Shown: positions 15,858 through 38,611 of the stretch, piece after piece
Position numbering within the stretch: position 1 is the stretch's first letter
Layout of the letters: each line of letters begins with the position of its first letter
Origin: Allosalinactinospora lopnorensis
GTDB taxonomy: Bacteria > Actinomycetota > Actinomycetes > Streptosporangiales > Streptosporangiaceae
DNA: 64,000 bases
Assembly (NCBI RefSeq): GCF_000981225.1
Contig: NZ_LAJC01000006.1
Span: 1 to 64,000 of the forward strand
Direction: 5' to 3'
Program-made: the position numbers and the translations under genes
Notes under the pieces: generated by a model
Told to the model about the DNA's origin: nothing
Databases searched by the model: none
Seen by the model: the letters and a program-made list of their open reading frames with translations, nothing else

Positions 15858-16976
15858 CCAACATGTCATCCCCGTGATCATCTCCGTGTGAGTCCGGTCA
15901 CCGTCGCATTGCATTCGGAACCTCTTCTGTGACTTCCGTATGATGGAGACACGCTCTTTCTTTCCTCAATTCGCCGCTATCGCATAACAGCGAAGAGGGT
16001 ATCCGAAATAGGCCGGCGACTGCCGGATTCCGGGTCGTTCTGTGTTATTCGACGTTCCCATCGGCGCGAGGTGACTATCCCGTTCGTGCGGGACGCGCTG
16101 CCGATACCGGTCGCATTCCTTAGCCTCGCGAATTCCGGCGGTCTGCGCAAATGCCTCCGCCCGCGACCGTGGGGGACGGCAGGTGCCCACCGCGGCGAGA
16201 AGCACCGCCGACCTGCTGCAAGAGCGCCTCGAACGGGATGGTGGAGTCGAGGGCGCGCGATGGGTGCGGGAAAAGCTCGGGACACGCGGTGCCGGCGCCG
16301 CGTGGTGGTCCGGGGAGGGCCGAGCGCAGCCGTGAATTGCGTCCGGGGCCCGACAAGTGCCGGACTGAGCAGACGGGGGAGTCCCGGACGCCGAAACCGT
16401 CGACGGGCGGTGCTCGGTTTCCAGGGGCCCCGCACCATGGCCGGCCTGCCGACGCCCGCGAACCGGCGAGGCGTCCGGTAACACACGCGGCCCGGTGATG
16501 GCATTCCCGAGTTGCGCGCACGACACCCGGACATGCTGTGGACCGAGCCGGCCACTGAGGACGCCCTTGACAGGCCCGAGGGGGCGCGGTTCCGCCGAAG
16601 CGGGCGCCCGCGTACGGCTCTCTTCCGGTCCGGCGCCGACCTCCACGCGGAGTGCGGTGGTGAAGGGCATGTGCCCGTTGCCTCAGAGCGCCGGAATCCT
16701 CAAGAACAGGGCCGCACATACCATCTTCCGCTGGTACAGTAACCCGGTCAGATCGTTGTTTTGGAAGGTCGCACGGGTTCATGGCCCGAGACACGGCAGG
16801 TCAGAATCCCGGACCCACGACCGACCAGTTACTCGGTCACATTGAGGCGGACACGCCTGCCCGGCGTAGCAGCAGTTGCCACTCCGAGGTCGCGTGGTTG
16901 AAGGTTCGGCGGGTAGGGATTGCCATGGCGTATTTCCTTCTGCCCATGACATTGCCTGGGCTATCCGGCGTATGGC
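15858..16976. other. Intergenic region without a recognisable gene
   Basis: About 1.1 kb lies between gntR and the decayed GTPase gene. Several long open frames exist on both strands at 16070-16850, but their translations are arginine- and proline-rich without motifs. They look like chance frames in GC-rich DNA. I see no RNA gene. Confidence 0.5.
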
Positions 16977-17517
16977 GCGGATGCCGACAGCAGGTCAGCG
17001 CTGTCGACCACAATCGTCGTCACAGAGGTTTGGCGTTGGCAGGATCGTACTGGTCAGCACGGTCTTTGAAATCCCGCCGGTGATGACCGAGACCTTCGTG
17101 ACGGAGGCGAGCGTGGAACACGGCGAGACGTCGGACACGCCGTTCGAGAAGACCGCCATCGCCATGGAGTTCAGTGGCATTCCCCCTGACCAGGAACTGA
17201 TCTCCTCCATGTTCGTTACTCCCGGGCAGCCGAGGTGCCGAGCTGATAACTTCGAGGCCGTCGACTATTTTGCGACGAATCGGCGGATTCCCCCCATCGT
17301 GGCGTTGAACAGACCCGGCGGTTTTCTCGGCCACTCCGTCGAGCAGGTACGCGAAGCTCTGGAGGTCGACTCGAAGGTGCGGATCGCTGGTTTCGACGCC
17401 CAGACGAGAAGTCACGCGGCGGTGTACTCACCACGCTGCTGCGCCACCCGGCGGAGCGTCCGAAGAACACCGAGCTCGTTGGCTGACGCCTCGAGGCTGG
17501 CGCCAGTCCCCCTGTAA
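16977..17517 (+). pseudogene. Decayed Ras-like GTPase of the conservon (CvnD) type
   Basis: The translation aligns by eye with the intact CvnD protein encoded at 46588-47169. The pre-P-loop strand TTIVVT is in one frame; the P-loop remnant RFGVGR continues in the next frame from 17026, so a frameshift falls inside the motif. Then follow FEIPP for SEIEP, TEAS for TAAS, MFVTPGQPR for LFGTPGQDR, NFEAVDYFATNRRI for SFEAVDFFERRGI, VREALEVDSKV for VRAALKIGPHV, and DAQTR for DARGDR. The P-loop lysine is replaced by Arg, and about 25 residues after the switch region are missing, so no GTPase activity is expected. It lies just before the StyA-like gene, which suggests that gene came from a former conservon. 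Confidence 0.7.
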
Positions 17518-17539: not shown

Positions 17540-18790
17540 ATGCGTAAAATCCTCATTGTCGGCGCTGGCCAATCAGGCCTGCATCTGGCCCATGGTCTGC
17601 TGACCTACGGATACGACGTCACCCTGATCACCAGCCAATCCTCGGCCGAGATCCGCACCGGACGACCGGCGATCACCCAGATCACCTATCCGACCGTCCT
17701 GGGCTACGAACGCGAACTCGGCCTCGACTTCTGGAGTGTTCAGGCGCCGAAGATCGACAGGGCGAAGGTCCACGCCTATCCGCCCGGAGGCACCACTCCC
17801 ATGGCCTTCTCCGGCGGCTTCGACGAGTACGCGATCTCGATCGACCGCCGTGTGAAGATGGCGGACTGGCTCGAGTACTTCGAGGACCGCGGCGGCAAGG
17901 TCGTCATCCACGGGGTCACCGTCAGCGACCTCGACTATTTCTCCCGGATGTTCGACCTCGTCATCATCGCCGTGGGGGGCGGCGAACTGGGGGCGCTGTT
18001 CGACGTCGACCGCACACGCGGCATCGGCCAGTGCGACCGGGTGCTCGCCCAGGCGCACATCTACAATGTCGCGACCGAACCCGGTGAGAGCGATTCGATC
18101 GCGTGGGTGGGGTCGTCCTCCGACGCCTACAGCATCTTCTTCGTGCCGATCCTCACCGCGGAAGGCCCCTGCCACTCGCTGTTCCTCGTGGACAAGCCGG
18201 GCGGGCCGATGGACCAGTGGCGCGGCCGGACCAAGCCGGAAGAGCAGTGGGCCCTGATGAAGGAGGCGCTGCAGACCTACATGCCGCAGTTCTACGAGCG
18301 ATGCGAGGACGCGGAACTGGTCGACGGCAGGAGTCGGCTGATCGAGACGGTCTCCCCGCAGGTGCGCAAGCCGGTGGGCGTCCTGCCCTCGGGCGGGCGC
18401 GTCCTGGGAATCGCCGATGTCGTTATCACCTCGGATCCCTTCGCGGGACAGGGCTGGAACAATTCCACCCGGTGCGCCAAGAGCTACCTGGAGAGCATCC
18501 TCGAACATGGCAACAAGCCCATCGACGAGGAGTTTCTCTCGGGTATGTTCGCCCGGTTCTGGGAGTACGGACAACACGCCGAGAAATGGGCGAACATCAT
18601 CTCCTCTTTCGGTGAGGAGCCGCCTCCCCCGCACTTCCAGGAGATCCTCCAAGGTGCCTTGACCTACTCGGAGATCGCCGACCGCTGGATCCAGGCCTGG
18701 GACTACCCGCCGGACTACCAGGAGTGGCTCTACGACCCCGAGCTCGCCCGGAAATACCTGGCCGAGGTCAAGGCCGCCCACGAGTCCTGA
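17540..18790 (+). CDS. StyA-like flavin monooxygenase (styrene/indole monooxygenase family)
   Basis: The 416-aa protein starts with an FAD-binding Rossmann motif (ILIVGAGQSGLHLAHGL) and has the family layout. It contains an arginine after the second strand (SAEIRTGRPAITQ), a middle substrate domain, and the late FAD motif around GIADVVITSDPFAGQGWN. StyA-type enzymes are group E monooxygenases. They use FADH2 from a separate reductase to epoxidise alkenes or indole; no reductase gene lies nearby. The start has only a weak ribosome site. It directly follows a decayed conservon GTPase and ends in a strong terminator before the PKS. It may therefore be a leftover conservon partner and not a tailoring enzyme of the PKS. 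The substrate is unknown. Confidence 0.82.
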   Translation: MRKILIVGAGQSGLHLAHGLLTYGYDVTLITSQSSAEIRTGRPAITQITYPTVLGYERELGLDFWSVQAPKIDRAKVHAYPPGGTTPMAFSGGFDEYAISIDRRVKMADWLEYFEDRGGKVVIHGVTVSDLDYFSRMFDLVIIAVGGGELGALFDVDRTRGIGQCDRVLAQAHIYNVATEPGESDSIAWVGSSSDAYSIFFVPILTAEGPCHSLFLVDKPGGPMDQWRGRTKPEEQWALMKEALQTYMPQFYERCEDAELVDGRSRLIETVSPQVRKPVGVLPSGGRVLGIADVVITSDPFAGQGWNNSTRCAKSYLESILEHGNKPIDEEFLSGMFARFWEYGQHAEKWANIISSFGEEPPPPHFQEILQGALTYSEIADRWIQAWDYPPDYQEWLYDPELARKYLAEVKAAHES

Positions 18791-19511: not shown

Positions 19512-22500
19512 ATGCCTAGTGAGCATTTTTCCAAAATGTCCGGAGTGGGGGTCGAAGCGGCCGACGCCGTCGCGGTAATCGGATTATCCTGCCGCCTTCC
19601 GAAAGCAGCTGACCCCGACGCTTTCTGGAAACTCCTGCGTGACGGGACAAGCGCCGTCACGGAGGTTCCCCATGGCAGGTGGGACACGGGCTCAAGCACC
19701 GGGCCAGGCGTTTTTGCGGGCGGTTTGCTCAACGACGCCGACCGCTTCGACGCGGACTTTTTCGGCATTTCACCGGGAGAAGCCGCCGCCATGGGCCCCC
19801 AGCAGCGGCTCATGCTCGAATTGAGCTGGGAGGTACTGGAGAACGCGCGCATCGTCGCGGCCGACCTCCGCGGGACGCGGACCGGCGTGTTCATCGGAGC
19901 CGTCGCAGACGACTACGCGGCCCTCCGCCAGGAGTATGGGGCTGAAGCCATCGCCCCGCACAACCTGACGAAGCTGAACCGCGGTTCCATCGCCAACCGG
20001 GTCTCCGCCACCCTCGGCCTGCAAGGGCCCGGCCTCACTGTGGATTCGGGGCAGTCCTCCTCACTCGTCGCTGTGCACATGGCATGCGAAAGCCTGCGGC
20101 GCGGCGAGTGCACGACAGCCATCGCCGGCGGAGTGAGCCTGAACATCACCGCCGAGTCGACGATGCGGGCGGTGAAGTTCGGCGCACTCGCCCCGGACGG
20201 ACGCTGCTCCACCCTCGATTCCCGTGCCAACGGCTATGTCCGCGGTGAAGGCGGCGGGGCGGTGGCGCTGAAACCCCTGCCGCAGGCGCTGGCAGACGGC
20301 GACCGGGTCATATGCGTGATCCGGGGCGGCGCGGTGAACAACGACGGTATCTCCGAAGAGCGGACCGCGCCTGATCGGCGAGGTCAGGAGGACGTCCTTC
20401 GGCGGGCCTGCGAACAGGCCGGGATCGCCCCTGCCGACCTCGCCTACGTCGAACTCCACGGCGCCGGGACAAGAGACGGCGATCCCGCCGAAGCCGCCGC
20501 TTTGGGTGCCGTACTGGGACGAGGCCGTCCCGCGGATTCGCCGTTGCCGGTCGGATCGGCCCAGACCAACGTGGGACACCTGGAAGGGGCCGCGGGGATC
20601 GCGGGACTGCTCAAGACGGCCCTGAGCATCGCGCACCGAGAGCTTCCCCCGAGCTCCGGTTCCGCGGTCCTCGATCCGCGGATTCCGCCGCCGGAACCAG
20701 GTCTGCGGATACAGCGCGATCTAGGCTCCTGGCCCGAAACCGGGCGTCCGCTGCTCGCCGGGGTCGCGTCCTTCGGCATGGGGGGCGGGACCAACTGTCA
20801 TCTCGTGCTGGCCGAGTCGCCGGCTGCCGAGCGCGCAGGCGCGCGGCCGGGCGACCGCGCAGGTATGTCCGCCCCGGCAACGCGGTCCCCGCTGGTGCTA
20901 CCCGTCTCGGCCCGAACCGGGAACGCACTGCGTGCACAGGCCGCACGGCTCCACGATGCCGTTGAGAACGATCCGGGAATCCGTGCGGTGGACGTCGGAC
21001 TCTCCTTGGCCACCACCCGTTCGCTCTTCGACGAGCGTGCCGCCGTCCTCGCCGACGACCGCGCCGGCCTGCTCCAGGGCCTGACCGCACTGTCCCGGGG
21101 CGCCGCTGCGCCCAACGTACTCCGCGGCAGTGCGCGCGCCGCGGGCGCGGTCGTGTTCGTCTTCCCCGGCCAGGAGTCGCAGTGGACAGGTATGGCCACC
21201 GAACTCCTCGACTCCTCCCCAGTGTTCCGCCAGGAGATGGCGGCGTGCGCCGACGCCCTCGCCCCGCACATCGGCTGGTCGCTGAACGACGTCGTGCGAG
21301 GGGTCCCAGAGGCTCCTCCGGTGGAAAACCCGGACATCGCCCATCCCGTGCTGTGGGCGACCATGGTGTCGCTGGCGGCGGTGTGGCGCTCGCTTGGTGT
21401 CGAACCGGCGGCCGTGACCGGCTGCGCGGGGGGCGAGATCGCGGCGGCCTACGTGGCCGGCGCCCTGTCGCGCGAGGATGCCGCCGCAGTCGTCGCGGTG
21501 TACGGACGGGCGGTCGCCTCAGCGGCGGACAGGGGTGCGATGGCCTCCGTGCGCCTTCCCGCCGAACGGGTGAACCGGCACGCCGCGCTCCGCGGCGGCC
21601 GCCTGCATCTCGCGGCCGTCAACGGTCCCATGTCCTGCGTTGTCGCCGGCGAACCGGGTGCCCTGGAAGAGCTGGTCGCCGAATACCGAGCCGAGGGAAT
21701 CGACGCACACAGAACCGACGCGGACCACGCGGCCCATACTCCCGAGATGGAGGCCGTACGGGAGTGGTTCCTCGGCGAGCTCGGCGACGTCACCCCCGCG
21801 GCGCCGGCCACCCCCCTCTACTCGACGGTCACCGGCGCACGCCTCGACAGCGCCGCGCGTATGGACGCCGAGTACTGGTACGGCAATCTCAGCAGCACCG
21901 TGCGGTTCGAGCAGGTCACACGTGCCCTCATCGACGACGGCCACGGAATTTTCGTCGAGGTCGGCCCGAGCCCTGTTCTCACCGATGGGATCATCGAAAC
22001 TCTCGACGCCGCCGGCGGTACAGGTGCCGCGGTGGGATCGCCGTGCCGTGGCGAATGCGGCTGGGCGCGGCTACTGCGTTCGGCCGCGCAGGCGCACGTC
22101 CACGGGGCCGCGCTCGACTGGGGGGCGGTCTATGCAGGCCACGAAGCCGACTTGGTCGATCTGCCGACCTACGCCTTCCAGCGCAAGCGCCACCGGCTGC
22201 CCCCTCCCGGCAGCGCGGGCGATGCGGGCTCCCTTGGTTTGGCACCCGCCGGGCATCCGCTTCTGGGCGCCGCCGTCGAACTGGCCGGGGACAACAGCAC
22301 CCTGTTGACCGGCCGGCTGTCGATACGGACGCATCCCTGGCTCGCGGACCATGCCGTATCCGGCGCTGTTCTGTTTCCCGGAACAGGGTTCGTCGAGTTG
22401 GCCACCTGGGCCGGTGCTCAGGTCGGCTGCGACCGGCTGGACGAGTTGGTCCTGGAGGCCCCACTGGCCCTGCCGGAGCAGGAGGGTGTGCAACTGCAGG

Positions 22501-25500
22501 TCATCATGGGCGCTGAGGAGGAGTCCGGTCAGCGGTCCGTGACCGTGTACTCTCGCCCGGCCGATCAGGAGGGCGAGCCGTGGCTGCGGAATGCCACCGG
22601 TGTGCTGAGCAGTACGAAGCAGGAACCGACGCCGGGCATCGGCGCCTGGCCGCCCACCGGGGCGGTACCGGTCGACGTGGACGGCGTCTATGCGGAACTC
22701 GCCGAGCGCGGTTACTCCTACGGCCCCGCCTTCCGCGGACTGCGGGCCGCGTGGCGGCGCGGTACCGACCTCTTCGCTGAGGTGACCCTGGCCGAGGAGG
22801 TCCGGGCCGACGCCGCAGCGTTCGGCGCGCATCCGGCGCTGATCGACACCGCGCTGCACGTGCTGTCGGCGGGTCCGTCCGCCGCCGACACCGGGATCCG
22901 GTTGCCGTTCTCCTGGGCCGGGGTGTCCCTCCACGCGGTGGGTGCGTCAACTGTGCGTGTGCGGTTGTCCCCGGCCGGTCCCGACGGTGTGGCACTGATG
23001 GTGACCGATACCGCGGACACCCCGGTGATGTCGGTCGACAGATTGGTGATGCAACCCGAAGCATCCCAGCGGTCGCGCGCCGGCCACGGTTCCGCGATCG
23101 AGGACTCACTGTTCGAACCGGACTGGGTCCAGGTGCCCGTACCGCCCGAGGCGAGGACGGATCGGTGGGCCGCGGTGGGCGCCGTCGGCGTTGCGGTGGG
23201 AGCGGCGAACACCTACCCGGATCTGGTGTCACTGGACACGGCGATCGATGCGGGAGCACCTGTCCCCGATGCGGTGCTCGCCGCGTGCCCGTCCGATCCC
23301 GCCGCCGATGGCGCGGCGGCCGCGCACGCGGCCGCGCACCGCGGACTGGCCCTGGTCAAGGAGTGGTTGTCCGATGACCGCTTCGCCTCCTCGCGGCTGA
23401 TCGTGGTGACTCGGGGGGCGGTGTCGGCATCGGACGGGGAGGAGGTGACCGACCCGGCGCAGACGCTGGTGTGGGGACTGGTTCGCTCGGCCCAGGCGGA
23501 GCACCCCGGCCGGTTCGTCCTGCTCGACATCGACGGTGCGGAGGAGTCCCACCGTGTGCTGCGGGCGGTGCTGGCCTCGGAAGAGCAGCAGTTGGCGCTG
23601 CGGCACGGTATCCCCTACGCCCCGCGCGTGGCCCGGGTCGCCGCGGACGGGGTCCTGCTGCCTCCGCCGGACTGCTCGGCCTGGCGACTGGACGTCACGA
23701 GCGGGGGGACTCTGGAGAACCTGGCACTGCTGCCCTGCCCGGAGGCGACCGCCCCTCTCGCGCCCGGCCAGGTGCGGATCGCGGTGCGCGCGGCCGGCGT
23801 GAACTTCCGGGACATCGTCGTCGCGCTCGGCATGGTCGCCACCGAGGACACCATGGGCAGTGAGGGCGCGGGCGTGGTCGTCGAGGTCGGGCCGCAGGTC
23901 AGCGATCTGGCCCCCGGGGACCAGGTGATGGGGCTGTTCTCCCGCGCGTTCGGTCCTCTCGCGGTCGCCGATCGCCGCACGATCGCGCGGATCCCGGCAG
24001 GGTGGTCGTTCGCGCAGGCGGCGTCGCTGCCGATCGTTGCGCTGACCGCCTATCAGGGCCTGGTGGACGTGGCCGGGCTGCGGCCGGGCGAAACGGTGCT
24101 GGTACACGCGGCCGCCGGCGGTGTGGGGATGACCGCGGTCCGACTGGCCCGGTACCTGGGCGCGGAGGTCTTCGCGACCGCCCATCCCGCGAAGTGGGAC
24201 TCGCTGCGGGCCTTGGGACTGGACGACGACCACATCGCCTCCTCCCGGTCCCTGGACTTCGAGAAGCGGTTCCTGCACGCCACCGGCGGCCGGGGGATGG
24301 ACGTGGTGTTGAACTCGCTGTCCGGGCGGTTCGTGGACGCCTCGCTGCGTCTGCTGGCCCGGGGCGGCCGGTTCGCCGAGATGGGCAAGACCGACATTCG
24401 CGAACCCAGTGAAGTGGCCGCCACGTACCCCGGTAGGAGCTACGAGGCGTTCAACCTCCCCAGCGTCCACCCGGAGCGTGTCGAGGAGATGCTGGCCGAG
24501 GTGCTCGGACTGGTCGAGCGCGGCGACCTGCCGCTGCCGCCGCTGCGTACGTGGAGCGTCCACAACGCGCCGGAGGCACTCCGGTTTCTCAGCCGGGCCC
24601 GCCACGTCGGCAAGATCGTCCTGACCCTGCCGCCGCCACTCGACCCCGACGGCACCGTGCTGATCACCGGCGGGACCGGAACGCTGGGTGGTCTGGTCGC
24701 CCGGCACCTCGTGACCGAACACGGCGTCCGGCATCTGCTCCTGGCCGGCCGGCGCGGCCACGATGCTCCCGGCGCGGCCGAGCTGGCGGACGAACTGCTC
24801 CGGTTGGGCGCCCAAGTGTCGGTGCAGGCGTGCGATGCCGCCGACCGCGACGCACTCGCCGAGCTCATGGCCTCAGTTCCCGAAGGGCGCCCACTGACGG
24901 CGGTCGTGCACGCCGCGGGGGTCCTCGACGACGCCCCGCTCCTCTCGTTGACCGCAGAGCAGGTCGACCGGGTCCTGCGCCCGAAGGTGGACGCGGCGTT
25001 GAACCTGCACGAGCTCACCGAGCAGCGGAACCTGTCGGCGTTCGTCCTGTTCTCTTCGGCAGCGGGCATCGTGGGCGGGGCAGGGCAAGGCAATTACGCG
25101 GCGGCCAACGCCTTCCTGGACGCGCTGGCCCACAACCGCCACGCACACGGTCTGGCCGCTGTATCGCTGGCCTGGGGGCTGTGGGAACCGTCCAGCGGCA
25201 TGATCAGCCATCTCGATGATGCCGATCTGGCCCGAATGCGGCGCGGCGGCTTCGCACCCATGCCCGCCGAACACGGCCTGGCCCTGCTGGACACCGCTCT
25301 GGTACTCGGCCGCCCGTTCCTGGTCCCGGCGCGGCTGGACGCGGCGGCCCTGAGTGCGGACCCCGGTCCGCAGCCCTCCGTGCTGCGCGACCTCCTTCCC
25401 AGCCGGCACACATCGGCCACCGGAGCCGACGACGACCGACCGGACCTGGCCCAACGACTCGGTGACATGCCCGAAACCGACCGCGATCGTTTCTTGCTGG

Positions 25501-25967
25501 ACCTGGTCCGCGGCCATGTCGCTCGCGTCCTGGGCCATGGCGACCCCGAAAGCGTCCAGCCCGGCCGCTCCTTCGTCGAGAACGGATGCGACTCACTCAC
25601 TGCCGTCGAACTGCGCAACCGCATTGGCGCGGCCACCGGTCTACGGCTCCCCGCCACACTGCTCTTCGACCACCCGACACCGACCGCGCTCGCCGCGCGA
25701 CTGCGGGACGATCTCCTGCCCGGCCCGCCGGCGAGCACCGAGCCCGCCCGCGACGAGGAGGAGCTCCGCAGAACCGTGGACTCCATCCCACTGGACCGGC
25801 TCCGGGAGGCGGGCCTGCTGGATGCGCTTCTGGAACTCGCCGACAACTCCTCGGACGAGAAGGGACGTGCGCAACCACCGGACGAAGACGAATCCATCGA
25901 CGAGATGGAGGTCGAGGACCTGCTGAAGCTCGCCTTGCACAACGACGACGCCGACAGCGGAGACTGA
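19512..25967 (+). CDS. Type I polyketide synthase, KSQ-AT(inactive)-DH-ER-KR-ACP
   Basis: The start is ATG 19512, with TGAGGGA upstream; 2151 aa. Domains by residue: KS 12-430, AT 545-840, DH 910-1190, ER 1390-1690, KR 1715-1900, ACP 1985-2055, then an acidic C-terminal docking region. The KS active site reads VDSGQSSSL, so Gln181 replaces Cys: a KSQ that decarboxylates and does not condense. The AT motif reads TGCAGGEIA where GHSxGE is expected, so the nucleophile is Ala639 and the domain should be dead, although the later His remains. DH keeps [15 protein letters not shown] and [12 protein letters not shown] keeps [13 protein letters not shown] keeps GGTGTLGG, the LDD motif of B-type KRs, and Tyr in GQGNY. 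ACP keeps GCDSL. The next PKS gene begins one base after the stop. A KSQ module with a full reductive loop is unusual. Confidence 0.92.
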
Positions 25968-25968
25968 G

Positions 25969-28900
25969 ATGACGATGGACCACGAACGACTCGTCACGGC
26001 GCTGCGCTCGTCTCTGAAGGAGACCGAACGCCTGCGCAAGCAGAATGAGCAACTTATCGAAGCGTCGCCGGAGCCGATTGCTGTTGTGGGGATGGGGTGT
26101 CGTTTTCCGGGGGGTGTTGGTTCTCCTGAGGGTTTGTGGGAGTTGTTGTGTGCGGAGGTGGATGCGGTTTCGGGGTTTCCTGCTGATCGGGGGTGGGATC
26201 TGGCGGGGTTGTTCGATGCTGATCCTGATGTGGGGGGCAGGAGTTATGCGCGTGAGGGGGGGTTTCTTTATGGGGCGGGGGAGTTTGATGCGGGTTTTTT
26301 TGGTGTGGGTCCGCGTGAGGCTGTGGCGATGGATCCGCAGCAGCGGTTGTTGTTGGAGACGTCGTGGGAGGCGGTTGAGCGTGGTGGTATTGATCCGGTT
26401 TCGTTGTCCGGTTCCCAGACGGGGGTGTTCGTCGGGGTGATCTCCCAGGACTACGGACCACGGATGCACCAGACGCGGGACGACCACGGCGGTTACCTGC
26501 TGACGGGCAACGCCGCCAGCGTCGCCGCCGGGCGGGTGTCCTACACCCTGGGGCTGGAAGGACCCGCGGTCAGTGTCGACACCGCGTGTTCGTCCTCGCT
26601 GACGGCCGTACACCAGGCATGCCGGGTACTGCAGCGGCAGGAGTGCACTCTGGCGTTGGCGGGCGGTGTGACCGTGATGTCGAGCCCGGGGCTGTTCCTC
26701 GAGTTCTCGCGGCAACAGGGGCTGTCACCGGATGGCCGGTGCCGGTCCTTCTCGGCGGACGCGCAGGGCACGGGCTTCTCAGAGGGCGCGGGCGTCCTGC
26801 TGCTGGAGCGGCTCTCCGACGCCCGCCGCAACGGCCACCCGATCCTGGCGGTGATCCGTGGCAGTGCGGTCAACCATGACGGCGCGTCGAACGGATTGAC
26901 CGCTCCGAACGGTTCCTCGCAGCAGCGTGTGATCCGCCAGGCGCTGGCCGATGCCCGGATCGGCCCCGAGGATGTCGATGCGGTGGAGGCGCATGGCACC
27001 GGCACCACCCTTGGTGACCCGATCGAGGCCCAGGCGATCCTGGAGACCTACGGGCGGGATCGCCCCGCCGACCGGCCGCTGCGGCTCGGCTCGCTCAAGT
27101 CCAACATCGGACACACGCAGGCCGCCGCCGGGGTGGGCGGGATCATCAAGATGGTGCTGGCCCTGCGCAATGGCGTCTTACCGCGGAGCCTGCACATCGG
27201 CCGGCCCTCACCCCATATCGACTGGTCCTCCGGTGCGGTCGAGCTGCTGTCCGAGGCGGCGCCGTGGCCCGAGACCGGCCTGCCGCGCCGGGCGGCGGTC
27301 TCCTCATTCGGCATCAGTGGCACCAACGTCCACATGATCGTCGAGAGCGCGCCGCCCGAAGAGGAGGCGCAGGACGGCGATGGGGCGGCCCCCGGTCGCA
27401 TCGGCACCCCGCCCCAGCACGAGACGGACGACGATACCCCGGAGCGGAGCGGCGGATCCGTGCCCGCAGTGCCGTGGGCGTTCTCGGGCCGTACCCAGCA
27501 GGCGCTGCGAGCCCAGGCCCTGGGGCTGCGGGAGCATGTCCGGAATCGTCCCGATCTGGACACGACCGACATCGGGTACTCGCTAGCGACCACACGTTCG
27601 CGCTTCGAACACCGTGCGGTGGTGGTCGCCCGCGATCGCGAGGAGTACCTCCTCGCCCTGGAAGCGCTGGCCAGGGGCGAATCCGCGCCCAGTGCCGTCC
27701 AAGGCCCCGGTACGCAGCCGGGCAGGACCGCCTTCCTGTTCACTGGTCAGGGCAGCCAGCGTCCGGGGATGGGCCGGGAACTCTACGCGGCCTTCCCCGT
27801 CTTCGCCGGCGCCCTCGACGAGATCTGCGCGCTTTTCGAGCCCGATCTGGACCGCCCACTGCGTGAGGTCATGTTCGCTCCGGCGGGCACACCAGACGCG
27901 GACCTGCTCGATCAGACCGCCTTCGCTCAGCCCGCGCTGTTCGCGCTGGAGGTCGCGCTCTACCGGCTGCTGGAGCAGCACGACCTGGCTCCCGACGTCC
28001 TGCTCGGGCATTCCATCGGTGAGATCGCGGCCGCTCACGTCGCCGGTGTACTGACACTGCCCGACGCCTGCACCATGGTCGCAGCCCGGGGCCGGCTCAT
28101 GCAGGAGCTGCCGCCCGGCGGTGCGATGATCGCCGTGCAGGCGCCCGAAGACAAGGTCCAGGCGTCCCTGGAGGGGCGCGGCGACCATGCCGCGGTCGCC
28201 GCTGTCAATGATCCCGCATCGACCGTGATCTCCGGTGACGCGGATGCCGTTGCGGAGATCGCCCGCGAATGGGAGGCGCGGGGAAACCGGACCAAACGCC
28301 TTCGGGTCAGCCACGCCTTCCACTCGCCGCGCATGGCCCCGATGCTCGACGACTTCCACCGCGTCTGCGGGAAGCTCTCCTTCCAGGCCCCCCGTATCCC
28401 CGTCATATCCGACCTCACCGGTCAGCCTCTCACCGCGGAGGAAGCGACGGATCCCCAGTACTGGGTCCGGCACGTTCGGCACACCGTTCGCTTCAGCGAC
28501 GGAATAACCGGCCTCCACGCCCAGGGGGTCAGCACCTTCGTGGAACTCGGCCCTGCCGCCGTCCTCACCCCGATGGTCGATGACTGCCTCGCCGAGCAGG
28601 CCGAGACCGCGCCGGGCCGACCGGAGGGAGCGGACGGCGCCGCTGCGCTCATCCCCGTCCTGCATCGTGACCGCTCAGAGTCCAGCTCCCTGATCGACGC
28701 GCTGGCGCGGGCCTTCGTCCACGGCGTCCCGGTCGACTGGACCCCCCTGTTCCGCGCGGCCCGCACCGTGGACCTGCCGACCTACCCGTTCCAACGCCGG
28801 CGCTACTGGCTGGTACCGGCGGAACCGTCCCCGGAACCGGCGCTGAGCGGGCGGGACGCCGCGGAGCAGCGGTTCTGGGAGGCCGTCGACCGCCGGGATC

Positions 28901-31028
28901 TCGATGCGCTGATGGCCGCCACGCAGATCAGCGGCCATCGCGAGGACCTGCGCCCGGCCCTGGAGACGGCGCTCGGGGCGCTGTCCGATTGGCATCGGCG
29001 ATCTGACGAGCGGTCGCAGGTGGCCGACTGGGGGTACGCCATGGAGTGGAAGCCCGGACGGCAGGCGCCCCCTGCCCTCGAACAACCGCTGTCCGGCACA
29101 TGGTGCTCGTGGTTCCGCGTGAACACGCCGGACACCCGTGGGTGGCGGGATGCGCCGCGGTGCTGACCAGGCACGGCGCCCGTGTTAAAGAGATCACGCT
29201 GGGCGACGTCGACGATGATGCGCTCGCCGGGCAGGTGTACGACGCGCTCCGCAGCGCTTCGGCGGGTGGCCACGCGGCCACCGGGGTGCTGTCGCTGCTG
29301 GCGTTGGCGGAGAGCCCGCACCCCGAGCGCCCGTCGACACCGCGCGGTCTCGCCTTGACGCTGGCCCTGGTCCAGGCCCTCGACGAGGCCGAGGTCGAGG
29401 CACCGTTGTGGTGCGCCACCTGTGCCGCGATGCGGGTGACCGATTCCGATCGAGGATCCGGCACGGCGCAGGCACAGGTGTGGGGCTTGGGGCAGGTCAT
29501 CGCCGTAGAGCACCCTGAGCGGTGGGGCGGGCTGGTCGACCTTCCCGACACCCCCGATCGACGGACGCGGAGGCTGCTGGGAGGCGTGCTCGCGAACGCG
29601 GCCGGCGAAGACCAGGTGGCCGTACGGCCGTCAGGGGTGTTCCACCGCCGCATCGCCCGAGCCGCGCAGGCGATGAACGGCACGCCGTGGCAGCCAGAGG
29701 GGGCCGTGCTGATCACCGGCGCGACCGAACCCCTGGGTGCGCATACCGCACGCCGGCTGGCACGCGACGGCGCCAGAAACCTCGTACTGGTCGTTCCCCG
29801 GGGAGCCGAGGCCGAGGGGGCGCGCACGCTCGCCGCCGATGTGGCCGGCCTGGGCGCCGCTGTCACCTTCCTCGACTGCGACCCTGCCGACCGGAATGCG
29901 CTGGCACGGGCGCTCGGCACGCTTTCCGGCAGCGTTGACCAGCCACTGACAGGCGTGGTGCACGCCGCTGGGACGAGTGACGACGGCGACCTCTCCCCAC
30001 TCACACTCGAACGCCTCGACCGGCTGATGCGGGCGAGGGTGGGCGGTGCGCTCAACCTCCACGAACTCACCGAGCACCTGGACCTGTCGGCGTTCGTGCT
30101 GTTCTCCTCCATGGCGGGAGTCTTCGGAGCCGAAGGCCAGGGGGGTCAGGCCGCGGCCTACGCGGCCCTGGACGCGCTCGCCCAGCACCGCAGGGCCCGG
30201 GGAATGGCGGCGACCTCGGTCGCGTGGGGACCGTGGAGCGAGGAGGACACCGCTGAGGACGACCCGGCGAGGGCGAAGCTGCTGCACCGATCAGGGCTGA
30301 CCCCGATGCCGCCGGATCCGGCGCTCACGGCGCTGCTGCAGGCCGCGGGTCAGAGGCAGGCCTTCCTGACCATGGCCGATGTGGACTGGGAGCGGTTCGC
30401 CGTCGCCTGGACCGCGGTACGGCGCTGTCGGCTGCTCGACGATCTTCCCGAGGTTCAGGACATCCTCGCGCCGGTCCCGGCGCAGTCCAATGACCCCGCG
30501 TCCGCCGCGTCGGACCTGCGGCAGACCCTGACCGGCCTGTCCGAAGCCGAGCGGGAGCACGTACTGCTGGACCTGGTCCGGACGAACACCGCGGCGGTAC
30601 TGGACCACTCCGACCTGAGCGCGGTCGCCGCCGGCCGCGGGTTCATGGAAATGGGAGTGGAATCACTGTCCGCGGTCGAACTCCGCCATCGGTTGGAAGT
30701 CGCCACCGGCCTGCGGCTGCCGACCACTGTGGTCTTCGACCACCCCACCCCGTTCGCGCTCGCCGGCTACCTCACGACCCAGATCACCGACATCGAAGCG
30801 GAATCCTCATCCGCACGTGCACTGGCAGAACTCGACGAGCTGCACGCCGCCCTCTCCGACCCCGCCATGAGCGATGCCGCCCGGAACAGAGTGGTGGAGC
30901 GTATGCGCAAGGTCCTGGCCGAATTCGACGATCCCGCGACCCACCATTACAAGACGGCCGACGACCTCACGCACGCCACGGACGACCAGCTTCTCGACTA
31001 CATCGATGAGGAGTTCGGGATCTCCTGA
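25969..31028 (+). CDS. Type I polyketide synthase, KS-AT(malonyl)-KR(inactive)-ACP, frameshifted as sequenced
   Basis: A coiled N-terminal docking helix is followed by KS with Cys207 in DTACSSSL and both histidines (EAHGTGT, SNIGHTQ). AT has Ser682 in GHSIGE and HAFH, which points to malonyl-CoA. After the AT comes a KR with its structural subdomain. The frame changes at about 29103: GTW continues as [10 protein letters not shown] in the -1 frame. One extra G in the run TGG-TG would restore a protein of about 1687 aa. The KR looks dead: the catalytic Tyr of GQGNY is Gln (codon 30147-30149), and the NADPH motif GGTGxLG reads GATEPLG. The ACP motif is GVESL. A helical docking tail ends in YIDEEFGIS. 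The chain should keep its beta-keto group here. Confidence 0.88.
26071..26438 (+). repeat. Near-identical KS segment, copy 1 (GT-rich codons)
   Basis: These 368 bases match 31273-31640 with only a handful of differences. The codons end mostly in G or T (GGT, GTT, TTG, GAT, TTT), while the flanking PKS sequence prefers C or G. The edges are sharp, near 26438. This suggests gene conversion or a transferred segment. Confidence 0.85.
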
Positions 31029-31173: not shown

Positions 31174-34100
31174 ATGACCAACGAGCAGAAACTCCGTGAC
31201 GTCCTCAAGAAGATGACCGTCGATCTGCGCCACGCGCGCAACCGCGTGCACGAGATGAGCGAGAGGGAACACGAGCCGATTGCTGTTGTGGGGATGGGGT
31301 GTCGTTTTCCGGGGGGTGTTGGTTCTCCTGAGGGTTTGTGGGAGTTGTTGTGTGCGGAGGTGGATACGGTTTCGGGGTTTCCTGCCGATCGGGGGTGGGA
31401 TCTGGCGGGGTTGTTCGATGCTGATCCTGATGTGGGGGGCAGGAGTTATGCGCGTGAGGGGGGGTTTCTTTATGGGGCGGGGGAGTTTGATGCGGATTTT
31501 TTTGGTGTGAGTCCGCGTGAGGCTGTGGCGATGGATCCTCAGCAGCGGTTGTTGTTGGAGACGTCGTGGGAGGCGGTTGAGCGTGGTGGTATTGATCCGG
31601 TTTCGTTGTCCGGTTCCCAGACGGGGGTGTTCGTCGGGGTAGTGGCCCAGGACTACGGGCCCCGGATGCACGAGGCTGAGGGGGGAATGGAGACCTACCT
31701 GCTGACGGGCAACGCCGCCAGCGTCGCCGCCGGGCGGGTGTCCTACACCCTGGGGCTGGAAGGACCCGCGGTCAGTGTCGACACCGCCTGTTCCTCGTCC
31801 CTGACCGCACTCCACCTCGCGTGCCAGGCCCTGCGCCGCGATGAGTGCTCCCTGGCGCTGGCCGGCGGTGTGACCGTGATGGTCGACCCCGGGCCGTTCG
31901 TCGCCTTCAGCCGGCAGCGCGGTCTGGCACCCGATGGCCGGTGCAAGCCGTTCGCCGCGGCGGCAGACGGGACCAGTTGGTCCGAGGGCGTGGGGATGCT
32001 CCTGGTCGAACGCCTCTCCGACGCCCGCCGCAACGGCCACCCGGTCCTGGCGGTGATCCGCGGCAGCGCGGTCAACCAGGACGGCAGGAGCAGCGGCCTG
32101 ACCGCTCCGAACGGTTCCTCGCAGCAGCGTGTGATCCGCCAGGCGCTGGCTGATGCCCGGATCGGCCCCGAGGATGTCGATGCGGTGGAGGCGCACGGCA
32201 CCGGCACCACCCTTGGTGACCCGATCGAGGCCCAGGCGATCTTGGAGACCTACGGGCGGGATCGCCCCGCCGACCGGCCGCTGCGGCTCGGCTCGCTCAA
32301 GTCCAACATCGGGCACAGCAGTGCGGCCGCCGGAGTCGGCGGTGTGATCAAAATGGTGCTGGCCCTGCGCAACGGCGTCCTGCCGCGGAGCCTGCACATC
32401 GACGCGCCCACTCCGCACGTGGACTGGTCGGCGGGATCGGTGGAACTGCTGTCCGAGGCGGCACCGTGGCCCGAGACCGGTCGGCCGCGCCGGGCGGCGG
32501 TCTCCTCATTCGGTATGAGCGGGACCAACGCCCACGCCATCCTGGAGGAGACGCCCGCCGACACCGACCCGTCCGAAGGTGGGAGTCCCCCGGCGCCTGC
32601 CGGAGCCGCGGCCCTGCCGTGGATGGTGTCCGGCCACAGCGAGGAGGCGCTTCGTGCCCAGGCGCTGCGGCTGTACGAGCACGTGCGGGCCGCACCGGAT
32701 ACGGACGCGGCCGACATCGGGCACAGCCTGGCCACCGGCCGGACCGACCTCGCGCACCGCGCGGTGGTGATCGGTCGCAGCACAGAGGAATTCCTGGCAG
32801 GTCTGCAAGCGGTCGCCGCCGGAGAACGTGCCTCCGGGGTCACGCGTGCGAAGGCGAGGGAGGGGGAGCGGGCGGTCTTCGTCTTCCCGGGACAGGGCTC
32901 CCAGTGGGCCGGGATGGCACTGGGACTGCTCGACACCGCGCCGGTGTTCGCCGACCGCATCGCTGCGTGCGAGAAGGCGCTGGCGCCCTACGTCGGCTGG
33001 TCGCTCACTGCCGTGCTGCGGGGGGAGCCCGGCGCGCCCGCACTCGACCGGGCCGACATCGTCCAGCCGGTGCTGTTCTCGATGATGGTGTCCCTGGCCG
33101 AACTGTGGCGCTTCCACGGGGTGCACCCCTCCGTGGTGGTCGGGCACTCCCAGGGGGAGATCGCCGCCGCGTGTGTGGCCGGTGCGCTCTCCCTCGAGGA
33201 CGCCGCCCGGATCGTCGCCCTACGCAGCCGCCTTGCCTCGGCCCTGTCCGGTGCGGGTGCCATGATGACGCTGGCGCTGTCCGCGGAACAGGCCGCGGCC
33301 CGACTGGAGCGCATCGCCGCCGAAGTGACGATCGCCGCGGTCAACGGGCCCGACACGGTGGTGCTCTCCGGTGACCGGCAGCCTATCGAGGACCTGCTCG
33401 CGCAGTGCTCGGCGGAGGGGGTGCACGCGCGCCGCATCGATGTCGACTACGCCTCGCATTCTCCGCAGGTGGAAAAGCTGCGGGAACGGATCGTGGACGC
33501 ACTCTCCGGGATCAGCCCGCAGCACGCCGAGGTCCCGTTCTTCTCGACGGTGACCGGCGGACGTGTCGAAGGGCGGAGTCTCGGCCCCGAGTACTGGTAT
33601 CGCAACCTCCGCAACACCGTGCTGTTCGAGCCGACCATCCGCGCACTGCACGAGCACGGAAGCAGCGCATTCATCGAGGTGAGCCCACATCCGATCCTGA
33701 CCTACGGGGTCGAGCAGACACTGGAGGCGGCAGGCCGGGAGAACGCGTCCGTTCTCGGCACACTGCGCCGGGACGAGGACGGCCCGGTGCGCTTTCTGAC
33801 CTCGCTCGCCGAGGCACACGTGCGTGGCCTCCCGGTAGGCTGGAAACCGGTCTTCGCACCCTACGGCGCACGGCGGGTCGACCTGCGACGTATGCCTTCC
33901 AGCACCGCCGCTATTGGCTGGAGCCGCTCGCGTCCACGGGGTACCCCACCGCAGCGATCCGCGCACCGGACCCGTCGTCTACAGCGGATCCGGCGGCAGC
34001 CGGTTCAGCGCTGACGGAGCGCCTGGCCGGACGCCCGGACGCCGAGCGCACGGCCGTCCTGCTGGACCTGGTGCGCACCGGGGCGGCCAGGGTACTGGGA

Positions 34101-35162
34101 CGCCCGGCCGCGGAGGATATCGGCACGGACCAGACTTTCCTGGAGCTGGGTTTCAGTTCCCTCACCGCGCTCGAACTCCGCAACGAACTGAACACCGTCA
34201 CCGGGTTGCGCCTGCCCGCGGCCGCGGCCTTCTCCCACCCCACACCGGCCGAGTTGGCCCGGCACCTGGACGGTGAGCTTCAGGAACGACTCCGTACCGA
34301 ACCAGGGGAGCCCGAGATCGCGGATACTTCCCCGGACGAGGCGGCGGACGGAGTGGTCGAGCTGTTTCGGCGATCCTGCCGCACAGGCAGGATCGGCGAA
34401 GGGATCGAGCTCATCCAGGCGGCGTCCCGGTTCCGGCCGACCTTCACCGACGCGGCCGGGTTCGGGGCGCCGCCCCGCCCGGTCCGCCTCTCAGAGGGCC
34501 CGGCACGGCCGCACCTGATCTGTCTGCCGTCGTTGGTGATGCTTTCCGGGGTGCAGGAGTACGCGCGCTTCGCCGCCGGGCTGCGCGACCTGCGGGAGGT
34601 CCAGGTCATCCCGCAACCGGGGTTCACCCCCGGCGAACCGCTCCCGGCCAGTATCGAAGCGGTCGTGGACGTACAGGTGCGAGCACTCTGTGCCTGCGCA
34701 GCGGGCGAACCGTTCGTCCTCGTCGGCCGCTCCTCCGGGGGGTGGGTCGCCCATGCCGTGACCGAGCGGCTTGAGGAGGCGGGAGTCGGGCCCGAGGTGC
34801 TGGTACTGGTGGACACTCCGCTGCCCGAAGACCAGGCCGTTCTCCCCGTCCTCGGGGCGGGCATGCTCGAACGGGAGCGGCAGTTCGGCTCCATGGACCT
34901 GGACGGCGTCAACGCGATGGGGGCTTACCTGCGGCTGTTCGCGGAATGGTCGCCGAAGCCGGTCTCGGCCCCGTCGCTGATGATCCTCCCGGACGAACCG
35001 GTCCGCGACCACACGGGGCTGCTGCCGGGCGGCGACGACTGGCGTTTCACCTGGGACCTGCCGCATCTGACGCTCGAGGTCACCGGGGACCACCTCACCA
35101 TGATGGAGGAGCACGCCGAGTCGACCGCGCTGGCGCTGCACACCTGGCTCGAACAACGGTGA
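31174..35162 (+). CDS. Type I polyketide synthase, KS-AT(methylmalonyl)-ACP-TE, frameshifted as sequenced
   Basis: The ATG at 31174 has GAAGG upstream and begins a docking coiled coil ([13 protein letters not shown]). KS is complete, with Cys in DTACSSSL (codon 31789). AT has GHSQGE and YASH, which points to methylmalonyl-CoA. The frame changes at about 33886 inside the post-AT linker: VDL continues as [10 protein letters not shown] in the -1 frame. One missing C (CTG CCG ACG) explains this and restores about 1329 aa. No KR, DH or ER is present. The ACP motif is GFSSL, with Ser in place of the usual Asp before the carrier Ser (codon 34158). The thioesterase keeps Ser in GRSSGG (34731), Asp in VDTPLPED and His in [10 protein letters not shown]. 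It should release an unreduced beta-keto chain. Confidence 0.88.
31273..31640 (+). repeat. Near-identical KS segment, copy 2 (GT-rich codons)
   Basis: This is the partner of 26071-26438 at a constant offset of 5202 bases. Further shared blocks follow in both KS domains (for example 26892-27110 with 32094-32312), but those have ordinary C/G-ending codons. Confidence 0.85.
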
Positions 35163-35421: not shown

Positions 35422-36114
35422 TCATTTGGCCGTTCCTTCGAAGAGCGCGACACATCCGCGGGTCGTGAGCGTGAAGTCGTCGAAGCGCTTCGCCAATTCG
35501 TTCCGGAGGTCGGAAAGAGAGTCGCCGGCGTTGTTGAACAGACCTTTCCCCTGATACGCCGCCATAAGACGGCGGGCCTGGGAGGTGATCGGCACGCCGT
35601 GGGCGAGAACCGTGGTCCCGAAGAAGCGGCCTCCGGGCCGGAGCACACGGTTGATGTGGTCGAAAATCACGCCTTTCTGTGTGAAGTCGCCCGGGACGCA
35701 GTGCAGGAACAGCGACATCGCGACCGAATCGAGTGATCCTTCGGGGATCGGGAATTCTTCGAGTGCGTTGGCCTCGTAGGTCTTCGTTGGATGTCCGGCG
35801 ACCCGGCGGCTCGCCCGGGCCAGCGGAACCGGGTTCAGATCCAGCAGATGGATCTCGGAGCTCCGTTTGTCGACCTGAGCCTTCTTCAGGAAGTATCCGG
35901 TTCCCACCCCGATGTCCAGGTGCCGGTCTCCGACGTTGCGCCGGTACTGGGCAGTGATATTGCGGCGTGGGCAGCGCCAGATCCAGCTCATGGAGAACCG
36001 GAGCACATAAAGGTCGTAGATGGCGAGAAGCAGCTTGCTGTAAATGGCGGCGCCGGCGTAAGCATCCGGTTGAGAGGGGTTGGGGGTCGCATCGTGGGGA
36101 GTTTCCTGCGCCAT
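35422..36114 (-). CDS. Class I SAM-dependent methyltransferase
   Basis: I chose ATG 36114 because GGAAGG lies just upstream; this gives 230 aa. SAM-binding motif I is LDIGVGTGYFL, the acidic end of the second strand is HLLDLNPVPL, and motif post-I/II is DSVAMSLFLHCVP, followed by LRPGGRFFGTTVL. The sequence around YDLYVLRFSMSWIWRCP is typical of small methyltransferases found beside polyketide synthases, but the exact family is not certain to me. It lies 78 bases after the FAD oxygenase gene on the same strand and converges with the PKS operon. A likely role is O-methylation of the PKS product, for example a 4-hydroxy-pyrone. That is inference. Confidence 0.82.
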   Translation of the reverse strand: MAQETPHDATPNPSQPDAYAGAAIYSKLLLAIYDLYVLRFSMSWIWRCPRRNITAQYRRNVGDRHLDIGVGTGYFLKKAQVDKRSSEIHLLDLNPVPLARASRRVAGHPTKTYEANALEEFPIPEGSLDSVAMSLFLHCVPGDFTQKGVIFDHINRVLRPGGRFFGTTVLAHGVPITSQARRLMAAYQGKGLFNNAGDSLSDLRNELAKRFDDFTLTTRGCVALFEGTAK

Positions 36115-36192
36115 GGAACCTTCCAAGGGTCTGGTGGAGCGCGGTGTTCCGGTGTGCTCGACCGAAGGCCTCACACGACCGTCACGCAGGTC

Positions 36193-37572
36193 TCACTTGT
36201 GCAGAATCGCGCCGGACGTGCTGTCAGTGACGGTGGACGCCGCTGGACGGCGCCACCCGGCGGTCAGGACGCGCAGCATGATGGCCGGCCGCAACAGCCG
36301 CGCGGGCGGGTCCAGCAGGAACGCGACGCGGATGAACTGGGTGGCGAGGACGGCGTCATGCGAGGCTTCCGCCTGCAGGCGGCGGAGGTAGGGGGCGAGG
36401 ACCCGCATCGACAGCGGCTGAGACCCTTCCACCCCGGGCAGCGCCAGGTCGGCGGCTGCCGCGCTTTGCCATGCCACTCCGATCGGGGTGGCCGCGGCCC
36501 GGAAGAACCGGTGCGGGAGGTTGTGCTTGCTGTGTTTCAGGCAGTCGCGCAACGCCAAGGCCTCAAGCCCGGCGAGCGACATTCCCTGCCCATAGATCGG
36601 GTTGAAACTGCACAGTGCGTCGCCGACGACGAGCAGTCCCTCGGGGAAACGGCGCAGCCGGTCGTAGCGTCGCCACCGGTTCGCCGGGAACTTGAACATC
36701 GACACCGTATCGAGTCGTTCCGCGTTGCGGATCGCCTCGATGGCGTGCGGCGGCAGGAACTCCGCGGCGAAAGCCACCCTGGCGTCGAAGTCGGCGGGCG
36801 GATCGTGGTCCACACACCCATAGGTGGTGAACAGCCACGTGTCGTTCTCCTGCCGGATCAGTGCCCCACCGGTCGGGCGGTCGGGTGTCGCGCCGACGAT
36901 GATCGACTTTTCCTGCAGGGCATTCGGTTGCAGTCGTAAGGGCTCGGTGACGTAGGCCACCTTGACAACCAGCTCTTCCTCCTGCGGACGCTCGTATCCG
37001 AGTTCCGCGAGCCATGCGGGTGTGCGGGCGCCGCGTCCCATCGCATCGACGACGAGGTCGGCGGCGAAGACCTCCTCCTCACTGCCGTCAGCGCGGTGCC
37101 GGACCCGGACCCCGGTCACCCGGTCGCGGGTCTCGGTGGTGACCAGGTCGACGACGTCGTACTGGTCGGCGATCGTGATATTGGGCACCGTCCGCACCCG
37201 GGTGCGAATGTGGTGTTCCAGGTAGGGGCGGGTGGCCAGATAGGTCGGTACACCGGGCTGCATGTCGGTGGACAGCAGTTGACCGGATGGCGCGAAGGGG
37301 AATTCCCGGTAGTCGTGGACGACCGGAGCTCCTCCGGCCGCGAGGTCGCTCAGCAGCCCCGGGAAGAGCTCGTCGAGAGCCTGGGATCCCCGAGGGAGCA
37401 TTCCGTGCGTGTGTTTTCCTTGGGGAACGCCTCCCCGGTGTTCGCTTGTCGTGGGGAGTCGATCTCGCTCGACGAGCGTCACCCGCTCGTAGGTGTCGGC
37501 CAGTACCCGTGCGGCGAGTAGCCCCGCCATACCGGCTCCGAGGACCACAGCATGATCGTCGGCCCCTCCCAT
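36193..37572 (-). CDS. FAD-dependent oxygenase (epoxidase-like)
   Basis: ATG 37572 follows a strong AGGAGGT, giving 459 aa; the longer open frame adds unrelated residues. FAD motifs are AVVLGAGMAGLLAARVLAD at the start, the DG-like segment LVVDAMGRGARTPAWL, and GLLVVGDALCSFNPIYGQGMS near residue 320. The stretch RGGVPQGKHTHGMLPRG and the overall layout resemble flavin epoxidases of polyether clusters (the MonCI/Lsd18 type) as I remember them. Halogenase or geranylgeranyl-reductase-like relatives are alternatives, but the WxWxIP halogenase motif is not seen. It is probably cotranscribed with the methyltransferase and tailors the PKS product. Confidence 0.82.
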   Translation of the reverse strand: MGGADDHAVVLGAGMAGLLAARVLADTYERVTLVERDRLPTTSEHRGGVPQGKHTHGMLPRGSQALDELFPGLLSDLAAGGAPVVHDYREFPFAPSGQLLSTDMQPGVPTYLATRPYLEHHIRTRVRTVPNITIADQYDVVDLVTTETRDRVTGVRVRHRADGSEEEVFAADLVVDAMGRGARTPAWLAELGYERPQEEELVVKVAYVTEPLRLQPNALQEKSIIVGATPDRPTGGALIRQENDTWLFTTYGCVDHDPPADFDARVAFAAEFLPPHAIEAIRNAERLDTVSMFKFPANRWRRYDRLRRFPEGLLVVGDALCSFNPIYGQGMSLAGLEALALRDCLKHSKHNLPHRFFRAAATPIGVAWQSAAAADLALPGVEGSQPLSMRVLAPYLRRLQAEASHDAVLATQFIRVAFLLDPPARLLRPAIMLRVLTAGWRRPAASTVTDSTSGAILHK

Positions 37573-38611
37573 CTGCCACCTCCTGTGTGTTGGGCACGCC
37601 ACAAGCTGTCCCAAACCAGACAGCCTCAAATGTCGTCCCTCGGGGGTTGCGGCATCAAACCCCTTTCACCTCGGATTCCATCGGCGATACGCAACATTTA
37701 TCGGTGTCGTGCCGTTTTCCCTCATAAGAGCCCTTCAGTGGCGGTACGCTGGCAAAAGAGTAGAATTCCCAGCTCTGTTGTCCACGAGTTTTGGATGACC
37801 CCCTGACAGATTCTGGACAGGGTTTAAATGGGCTGCCCGGCCCTTGAAGGCCTTTGTATTTCTTGTTGTCCGTTTTCGTATTCCGCGGATCATCGTGGTG
37901 CACCGGGGCGGGAAGCGCGCGATGGTGTACCGATGGGTGCCGGGCATCTGCAGGGACGGCAGGTGTTGTCCGAGCTCCGAAGGCGGCGGTACGCCCGCGG
38001 AGACGCGGAGGTACACGTTGTGTTGTTGTGACCGGCCGCGTTTAGGACGGCTGGTTTCGCCGGAAGTGCGACCTGGACCGCGGGCACGGGGACGTATCGG
38101 GTGAGGACCACGGCTGCTCCCACGTGATGCTGCTGGGGCCCGCCTCGATCGAGCTCGGGCACGAGTTTGAGCGAGTTGGACGAGAACACTCCGTTCGCGT
38201 TCGGTACCAACCCTGGGCCCGTGCGCCGTGGGCCTCGCGACCGGCCCGGAGGAGCCGGCCGAGCCGAGGGCCGCTGAGGACGCGCAGGTGGGCGGGAAAC
38301 CATCCCGTACCGCGAGTGGGCCCTTTCCCGCATGAGGGGCGAGGAGCCGGGTGGTTTCGTATACCGCTCCCCGCTGGGCGGGACCGCTGTGGCGCGTTCG
38401 GGAGCCTGACACCTCAGCCGCGGCCGGCGGATACCCGTGTGCGCGGTCGTGCCGCGAGCTGCCGCGGAACACTCCGGCCTCCTCGGTCCGCCGTTGCCCC
38501 ACGGCGGTCGCGGATCGCCGCCCCTGTGGATTACCCCCAGATGCTTTACGCCGGTAACCGGAGTGGTTACTATCAAGCTCGGTTTACTGGTAACAATGAG
38601 AGGGGTGCGGC
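37573..38611. other. Intergenic region with an operator-like repeat at its end
   Basis: About 1 kb lies between divergent genes. I see no coding frame with recognisable similarity. The left part must hold the promoter of the FAD/methyltransferase unit. The right end contains the repeated GGTAAC/GTTAC elements listed separately. Confidence 0.45.
38551..38595. promoter_or_regulatory. Operator-like GGTAAC repeats before the hydrolase
   Basis: Copies of GGTAAC or its inverse GTTAC occur at about 38553-38558, 38565-38570 and 38588-38594, just upstream of the hydrolase start (38612). The pattern suggests a dimeric repressor site overlapping the promoter. A matching regulator is not obvious; the AraC-type gene downstream is one candidate. 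Confidence 0.45.

Follow-up and report, generated by a model that had tools for sequence, protein, structure and literature searches.

Modular polyketide synthases (PKSs) that begin with a decarboxylative KSQ-AT-ACP loading module, in which glutamine replaces the cysteine of the KS, include those of pikromycin (PikAI, 7uwr), GfsA (7vee/7vef), tylosin and monensin. The first PKS protein of the cluster analysed here, gene 1, is like these loaders in having glutamine for cysteine, in retaining both histidines, in its place within the KSQ clade and at the N-terminal position, and in having an AT and an ACP downstream. It differs from them in that the AT is predicted to be dead and has methylmalonyl extension-type ancestry, in its complete DH-ER-KR loop, and in the Lys351Gln substitution and glycine insertion of the KSQ itself. 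The thiotetronate loaders TueA and TlmA are KSQ-ACP modules with no AT, for which loading by the malonyl transferase of fatty acid synthase (FAS) has been proposed (PMC5518548). Like gene 1 they have a KSQ and an ACP without a working cis AT and need charging in trans, but they contain neither an AT remnant nor reductive domains, whereas in gene 1 a dead AT persists and the KSQ is altered. In module 12 of the irumamycin PKS (PMC11672594) the AT is also dead, and a neighbouring AT has been proposed to serve it; this is an extension module, however, and is not linked to a KSQ.

Organization of the gene cluster

The window analysed comprises 64,000 nucleotides of contig NZ_LAJC01000006.1 from Allosalinactinospora lopnorensis, and all coordinates refer to it (Table 1). 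No stop codon interrupts the 2151 codons of gene 1, which show normal coding periodicity, and the order of its Pfam domains is KS-AT-DH-psKR-ER-KR-ACP. It has the glutamine and the clade membership of a KSQ, yet carries reductive domains and is predicted to have no active AT. Compared with a fully reducing extension module it possesses an AT-DH-ER-KR-ACP section of extension descent, but Gln181 stands where the condensing cysteine would be.

Table 1. Features of the PKS cluster and its flanks, with coordinates in the window
Feature	Coordinates	Strand	Basis or remarks
Hypothetical gene travelling with the monooxygenase	16876..17517	+	
Styrene/indole-monooxygenase-like flavoprotein	17540..18790	+	Conserved beside related KSQ PKS genes
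Gene 1, probably chimeric PKS, KSQ-AT0-DH-psKR-ER-KR-ACP with C-terminal docking region, 2151 aa	19512..25967	+	Intact frame, Pfam
KSQ domain, residues 15-450	19554..20861	+	Gln181, Thr318Ala, Lys351Gln; His316 and His356 intact; extra Gly
Inferred fusion point, KS-AT linker, residues ~441-500	20832..21011	+	Sliding identity, trees
AT domain, predicted dead, methylmalonyl-type ancestry	21132..22151	+	GCAGGE, Arg664Tyr, HAAH; predicted fold intact
DH domain	22224..23081	+	Intact motifs
Structural KR subdomain (SpnB Rossmann)	23229..23681	+	Pfam
ER domain	23694..24626	+	Intact
KR domain	24627..25301	+	Intact: GGTGTLGG, Ser, [13 protein letters not shown]-type motif
ACP	25464..25736	+	DSL serine intact
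Gene 2, docking-KS-AT(malonyl, HAFH)-KR-ACP	25969..31028	+	Pfam; one-base frameshift near 29090-29107
Gene 3, docking-KS-AT(methylmalonyl, YASH)-ACP-TE	31174..35162	+	Pfam; one-base frameshift near 33884
Class I methyltransferase	35422..36174	-	
MonCI/Lsd18-like flavin epoxidase (polyether-type)	36193..37629	-	

The active sites of the KSQ and AT domains

The KS motif of gene 1 reads VDSGQSSS, where the codon CAG at 20052-20054 specifies Gln181 in place of cysteine. Within the AT motif GCAGGE, TGC at 21423-21425 changes the histidine to cysteine and GCG at 21426-21428 changes the serine to alanine. The codons thus confirm the two substitutions on which the original prediction was based, glutamine for the KS cysteine and alanine for the AT serine. 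The AT has suffered further losses, since Arg664 is replaced by tyrosine (21501-21503) and YASH has become HAAH. From these residues the AT is predicted to be catalytically dead, and the ACP of gene 1 not to be loadable by the normal mechanism. AlphaFold models of KS-AT (17 sequences, mean pLDDT 81.6) keep the AT fold and match known KS-AT didomains; the predicted fold is thus intact, a result that carries no information on activity.

Indel errors are appreciably frequent in the assembly, and it might be suspected that the two active-site codons arose by sequencing or assembly error, or that two genes were joined by misassembly. This is highly improbable. The codons for the His-Ser-Gln section of the AT differ by six bases from those of the closest homologous AT (GGC CAT TCG CAG, in contig C4 of the same genome) and the change from cysteine to glutamine needs several base changes, so read errors were rejected. 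The differences are in frame and span multiple bases, the exchange of cysteine for glutamine occurs within a 142-member KSQ clade, and the AT carries the additional coordinated losses Arg664Tyr and HAAH. Moreover the reading frame crosses the fusion point without a break, and the putative parent modules are only about 55-70% identical to gene 1, which argues against a collapsed repeat.

The decarboxylation site of a KSQ comprises two histidines, a lysine, the HGTGT motif and the GGTN loop. Both histidines are kept in gene 1, but the other three elements are altered. Thr318 is replaced by alanine (20463-20465), converting HGTGT to HGAGT, a change found in three other KSQs. Lys351 is replaced by glutamine (20562-20564), converting GSxKTN to GSAQTN; the lysine is present in 141 of 142 KSQs, and glutamine at this position is unique among them. 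An extra glycine (residue 424, ~20781-20783) lies in the loop SFGM-GGTN, and is absent from all 101 others compared. In a simulation of the reaction of a homologous malonyl KS the two threonines of HGTGT hold the thioester and two histidines hold the carboxylate, with the lysine sometimes taking the place of a histidine (PMC12267109). Because of Lys351Gln, Thr318Ala and the insertion into the GGTN loop, the KSQ of gene 1 is probably poor or inactive; some decarboxylation may persist, since the catalytic glutamine and both histidines are kept.

Comparison with other KSQ modules

A sample of 142 other KSQ modules, some of them from closely related strains, was surveyed. The arrangement KSQ-AT-ACP-KS is found in 126, bearing out the expectation that a KSQ loader normally comes with an active AT and without reductive domains. 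Eight have no working AT, of which four have no AT at all (L133, L189, L195 and L199) and four have lost the serine (GAGLGE in L058; GHLDGE in L128, L132 and L134). The AT-less KSQs keep the lysine, and the GGTN loop where this is displayed; loss of the AT alone therefore does not relax a KSQ. Only two modules, L223 and L226, contain a reductive domain upstream of the next KS, besides a remnant in genome G023. These two are KSQ-AT-KR-ACP, and so have a reductive domain in a KSQ module as in gene 1, but they present the reverse case, with an intact AT and a degenerate KR whose cofactor and catalytic motifs are lost. No intact reductive loop is present in any of the 142. Among the sequences sampled a dead or missing AT beside a KSQ is thus uncommon but recurrent, while the intact reductive loop of gene 1 is unique. 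A literature search, with poor coverage of subscription journals, brought up no example of a full reductive loop in a KSQ module.

It had been proposed that neither loading nor chain extension by gene 1 could be explained by known rules. For loading this was too strong, given that KSQs with dead or absent ATs recur (8/142) and that trans-loading has been proposed for TueA and TlmA (PMC5518548); for the reductive loop it stands.

Two forms are seen among the modules without a working AT. In L133, L189, L195 and L199 the AT is cleanly excised, with the KS-AT linker running into the post-AT linker and ACP, and the next modules have their own ATs. In L128, L132 and L134, which come from three genomes of one genus, the AT is shrunken.

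The survey bears on one alternative for gene 1, namely that it is an ordinary KSQ starter loaded in trans. The ACP would receive malonyl or methylmalonyl from the FAS malonyl transferase or from one of the ATs of genes 2 and 3, the KSQ would decarboxylate this to acetyl or propionyl, and DH-ER-KR would be idle. Such a role would be consistent with the intact Gln181, His316 and His356, with the recurrence of AT-less and AT-dead KSQ loaders (4 + 4 among 142), with the FAS supply proposed for the KSQ-ACP loaders TueA and TlmA (PMC5518548), and with the presence of discrete ATs in the genome. Yet it is rather unlikely, because no other KSQ compared has Lys351Gln or the GGTN insertion, while AT-less KSQs keep that lysine, and the lysine and the threonine pair of HGTGT have substrate-handling roles in the simulation (PMC12267109). 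An idle loop should also decay, as the trapped KR of L223 and L226 has done and the loop of gene 1 has not.

Evidence for a chimeric origin of gene 1

Identity in sliding windows divides gene 1 into two parts. Residues 1-440 are mostly ~50-80% identical to the loading KSQs of contigs C4 and C58 of the same genome, versus 27-63% to the extension KSs of those contigs. From residue ~480-500 onwards the similarity reverses, and gene 1 resembles the first extension module of C4 and C58, AT-DH-(ER)-KR-ACP. Phylogenetic trees divide it in the same manner. The KSQ falls inside a 103-member KSQ clade with a support of 1.0, adjoining those of G023 and C4 (0.96), while the dead AT (AT0) clusters with the first-extension ATs of C4, C58 and G021 (0.99). 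The layout expected of the parent is found in the first protein of the G021 locus, KSQ-AT0-ACP-KS-AT-DH-ER-KR-ACP, where the loading AT is already dead (GAGLGE).

Gene 1 was thus very probably formed by joining a loading KSQ to the AT-DH-ER-KR-ACP of a first extension module. The mosaic is evident from the comparison of sequences; we infer the deletion event, a single deletion within the KS-AT linker in which the loading AT, the loading ACP and the extension KS would have been lost. Neither this chimera of KSQ and extension module, seen by sliding identity and in the trees, nor the degradation of the KSQ had been noticed in the original prediction. Gene 1 looks like a natural record of the fusion of loading and extension modules inside the KS-AT linker. 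This linker is a junction that is also cut by PKS engineers.

Related loci were sought with a 440-aa KSQ query. Within the family, the nearest KSQ loci include those of G023 (68% identical), contigs C4 (65%) and C58 (63%) of the same genome, and G021 (61%); a scan of the contigs of the same genome with the full-length gene 1 protein returned only distant KS-AT modules. In G023, C4 and G021 the monooxygenase gene adjoins that for the KSQ, the clusters of G023 and G021 both end in a related TE, and the small hypothetical gene is common to G023 and C4. On these shared features, the gene 1, G023, C4 and G021 loci are assigned to one family of related clusters. The remainder of the G021 locus (L058 with L089/L090) encodes KS-AT-ACP and KS-AT-DH-KR-ACP-TE. 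It shares with the gene 1 cluster the neighbouring monooxygenase, a related KSQ, related AT, DH, ER and KR domains of module 1, a related TE and a dead loading AT, but there the loading module stands apart from extension module 1, whose KS and AT are active. In G023 (L033, with neighbours identified by tblastn), a complete genome, the KSQ and part of an AT are fused to the end of an ER followed by KR-ACP-TE, the latter part being in another frame. From its sequence L033 is a pseudogene belonging to this cluster family, attributable to deletion and frameshift.

Constraint upon the individual domains

Changes at near-invariant alignment columns were counted by a leave-one-out procedure, the control sets not being the same from domain to domain. 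The KSQ of gene 1 is changed at 9 of 120 such columns (141 others: median 1, maximum 8) and the AT at 7 of 34 (241 others: maximum 5), and each is the most deviant of all those compared. The corresponding counts are 0/16 for DH, 2/63 for ER, 0/33 for KR and 0/5 for ACP. Comparison of the KSQ and AT together with the loop gives P = 0.005, with P = 0.06 for the KSQ alone and P = 0.0004 for the AT alone. The earlier view that DH, ER, KR and ACP are apparently intact is therefore upheld, their motifs being present and near-invariant positions showing no excess of change.

Tajima relative rate tests with G021 as outgroup indicate that the AT is accelerated (61 versus 29, P = 0.001; 66 versus 21, P = 1.4e-6). 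DH, KR and ACP are not, the KR being slower than that of C58, and the KSQ is slightly faster, mostly without significance. Gene 1 provides domain-by-domain evidence on which parts later left selection.

These rates are pertinent to the suggestion that the cluster is dead or dying, in which case the fusion would have disabled the assembly line, and the other domains would remain intact only for want of time to decay. One frameshift is present in each of genes 2 and 3, and the KR of gene 2 (29691-30365) is predicted to be inactive because its catalytic lysine, tyrosine and asparagine are lost (GQGGQAAAY). Furthermore the closest KSQ relative, that of G023, is a remnant left by deletion and frameshift, in a genome that is complete in one contig. 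However, a codon-usage scan finds frameshift-like breaks elsewhere in the assembly (L076, L077, L078, L080, L083 and others); the scan is crude and many of its weak calls are false, so only strong, Pfam-checked breaks were used, and these split the conserved genes for isocitrate lyase, CstA and a DSHCT helicase. This suggests that the assembly is prone to indels, and the two breaks here may be assembly errors. Because breaks of the same type affect conserved genes they are weak evidence of decay, and were set aside as a sign of it. Gene 1 itself is open throughout with normal periodicity, and its AT has long been relaxed where its DH, KR and ACP have not. A dying cluster is accordingly judged unlikely.

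Possible function of gene 1

With a dead AT and a KSQ that is probably impaired, the ACP of gene 1 would have to be charged in trans. The intact DH-ER-KR-ACP, when trapped KRs have decayed in other modules, speaks for a loop in use, and hence for the arrival of a beta-ketoacyl or similar group from outside. The original prediction had offered two ways out, another acyl source or a loop acting upon a chain delivered from outside, and both are considered to be the right ones. The explanation preferred here combines a deletion fusion, KS and AT domains that persist as relaxed scaffolds, charging of the ACP in trans and a working reductive loop; taken as a whole it is plausible but falls short of probable. 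That the loop works is itself proposed tentatively. The AT may have lost its activity ahead of the fusion, at a time when the module still extended chains, and the intact loop would then reflect earlier use without present use.

If charging in trans takes place and the loop works, malonyl could be transferred to the ACP by the FAS malonyl transferase or by the malonyl AT of gene 2, and the first carbon-carbon bond would be made by a KS outside the gene 1 protein, either a FabH-type KAS III or the KS of gene 2. Another possibility is that the ACP receives an acyl group already in the beta-oxo, hydroxy or enoyl state. Reduction of a beta-ketoacyl-ACP by KR, DH and ER would yield a short, saturated acyl group as starter. 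In the neighbourhood of the PKS genes no cognate trans-AT, acyl ligase or KAS III could be recognised; discrete AT and KAS III matches in the genome are possible trans sources, none of them tied to the cluster. In one form of the proposal a loading module with no working KS or AT acts as a dedicated reduction platform. Other enzymes, such as FabD of FAS together with a KAS III, would make a beta-ketoacyl group that is placed on the ACP and reduced by DH-ER-KR, and the saturated chain would start a short modular PKS. This is conceivable but doubtful. If the loop is in use, it represents a route of polyketide initiation outside the standard loading rules. Gene 1 is also a warning to cluster-annotation software that starter units should not be predicted from KSQ and AT signatures alone.

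Gene 2 (malonyl, with a KR predicted to be dead) and gene 3 (methylmalonyl, no reduction) would then add two unreduced units. Since neither unit is reduced and a TE comes last, the simplest predicted product is a triketide pyrone such as a 6-alkyl-4-hydroxy-3-methyl-2-pyrone, which might be tailored by the methyltransferase and the flavin oxygenases. The nocapyrone cluster was weighed as a relative in this connection; it is described in a genome announcement without domain detail, and membership is not claimed.

Two further observations concern the neighbouring genes. A homologue of the MonCI/Lsd18-like epoxidase with 64% identity adjoins a PKS AT fragment on contig C66 (G000:C66, L095). Where their KS begins, genes 2 and 3 share a 368-bp tract (26071-26438 and 31273-31640) that is 98.6% identical and has a GC3 of ~0.58 versus ~0.86 in the remainder of these genes; it is a recoded or gene-converted repeat.
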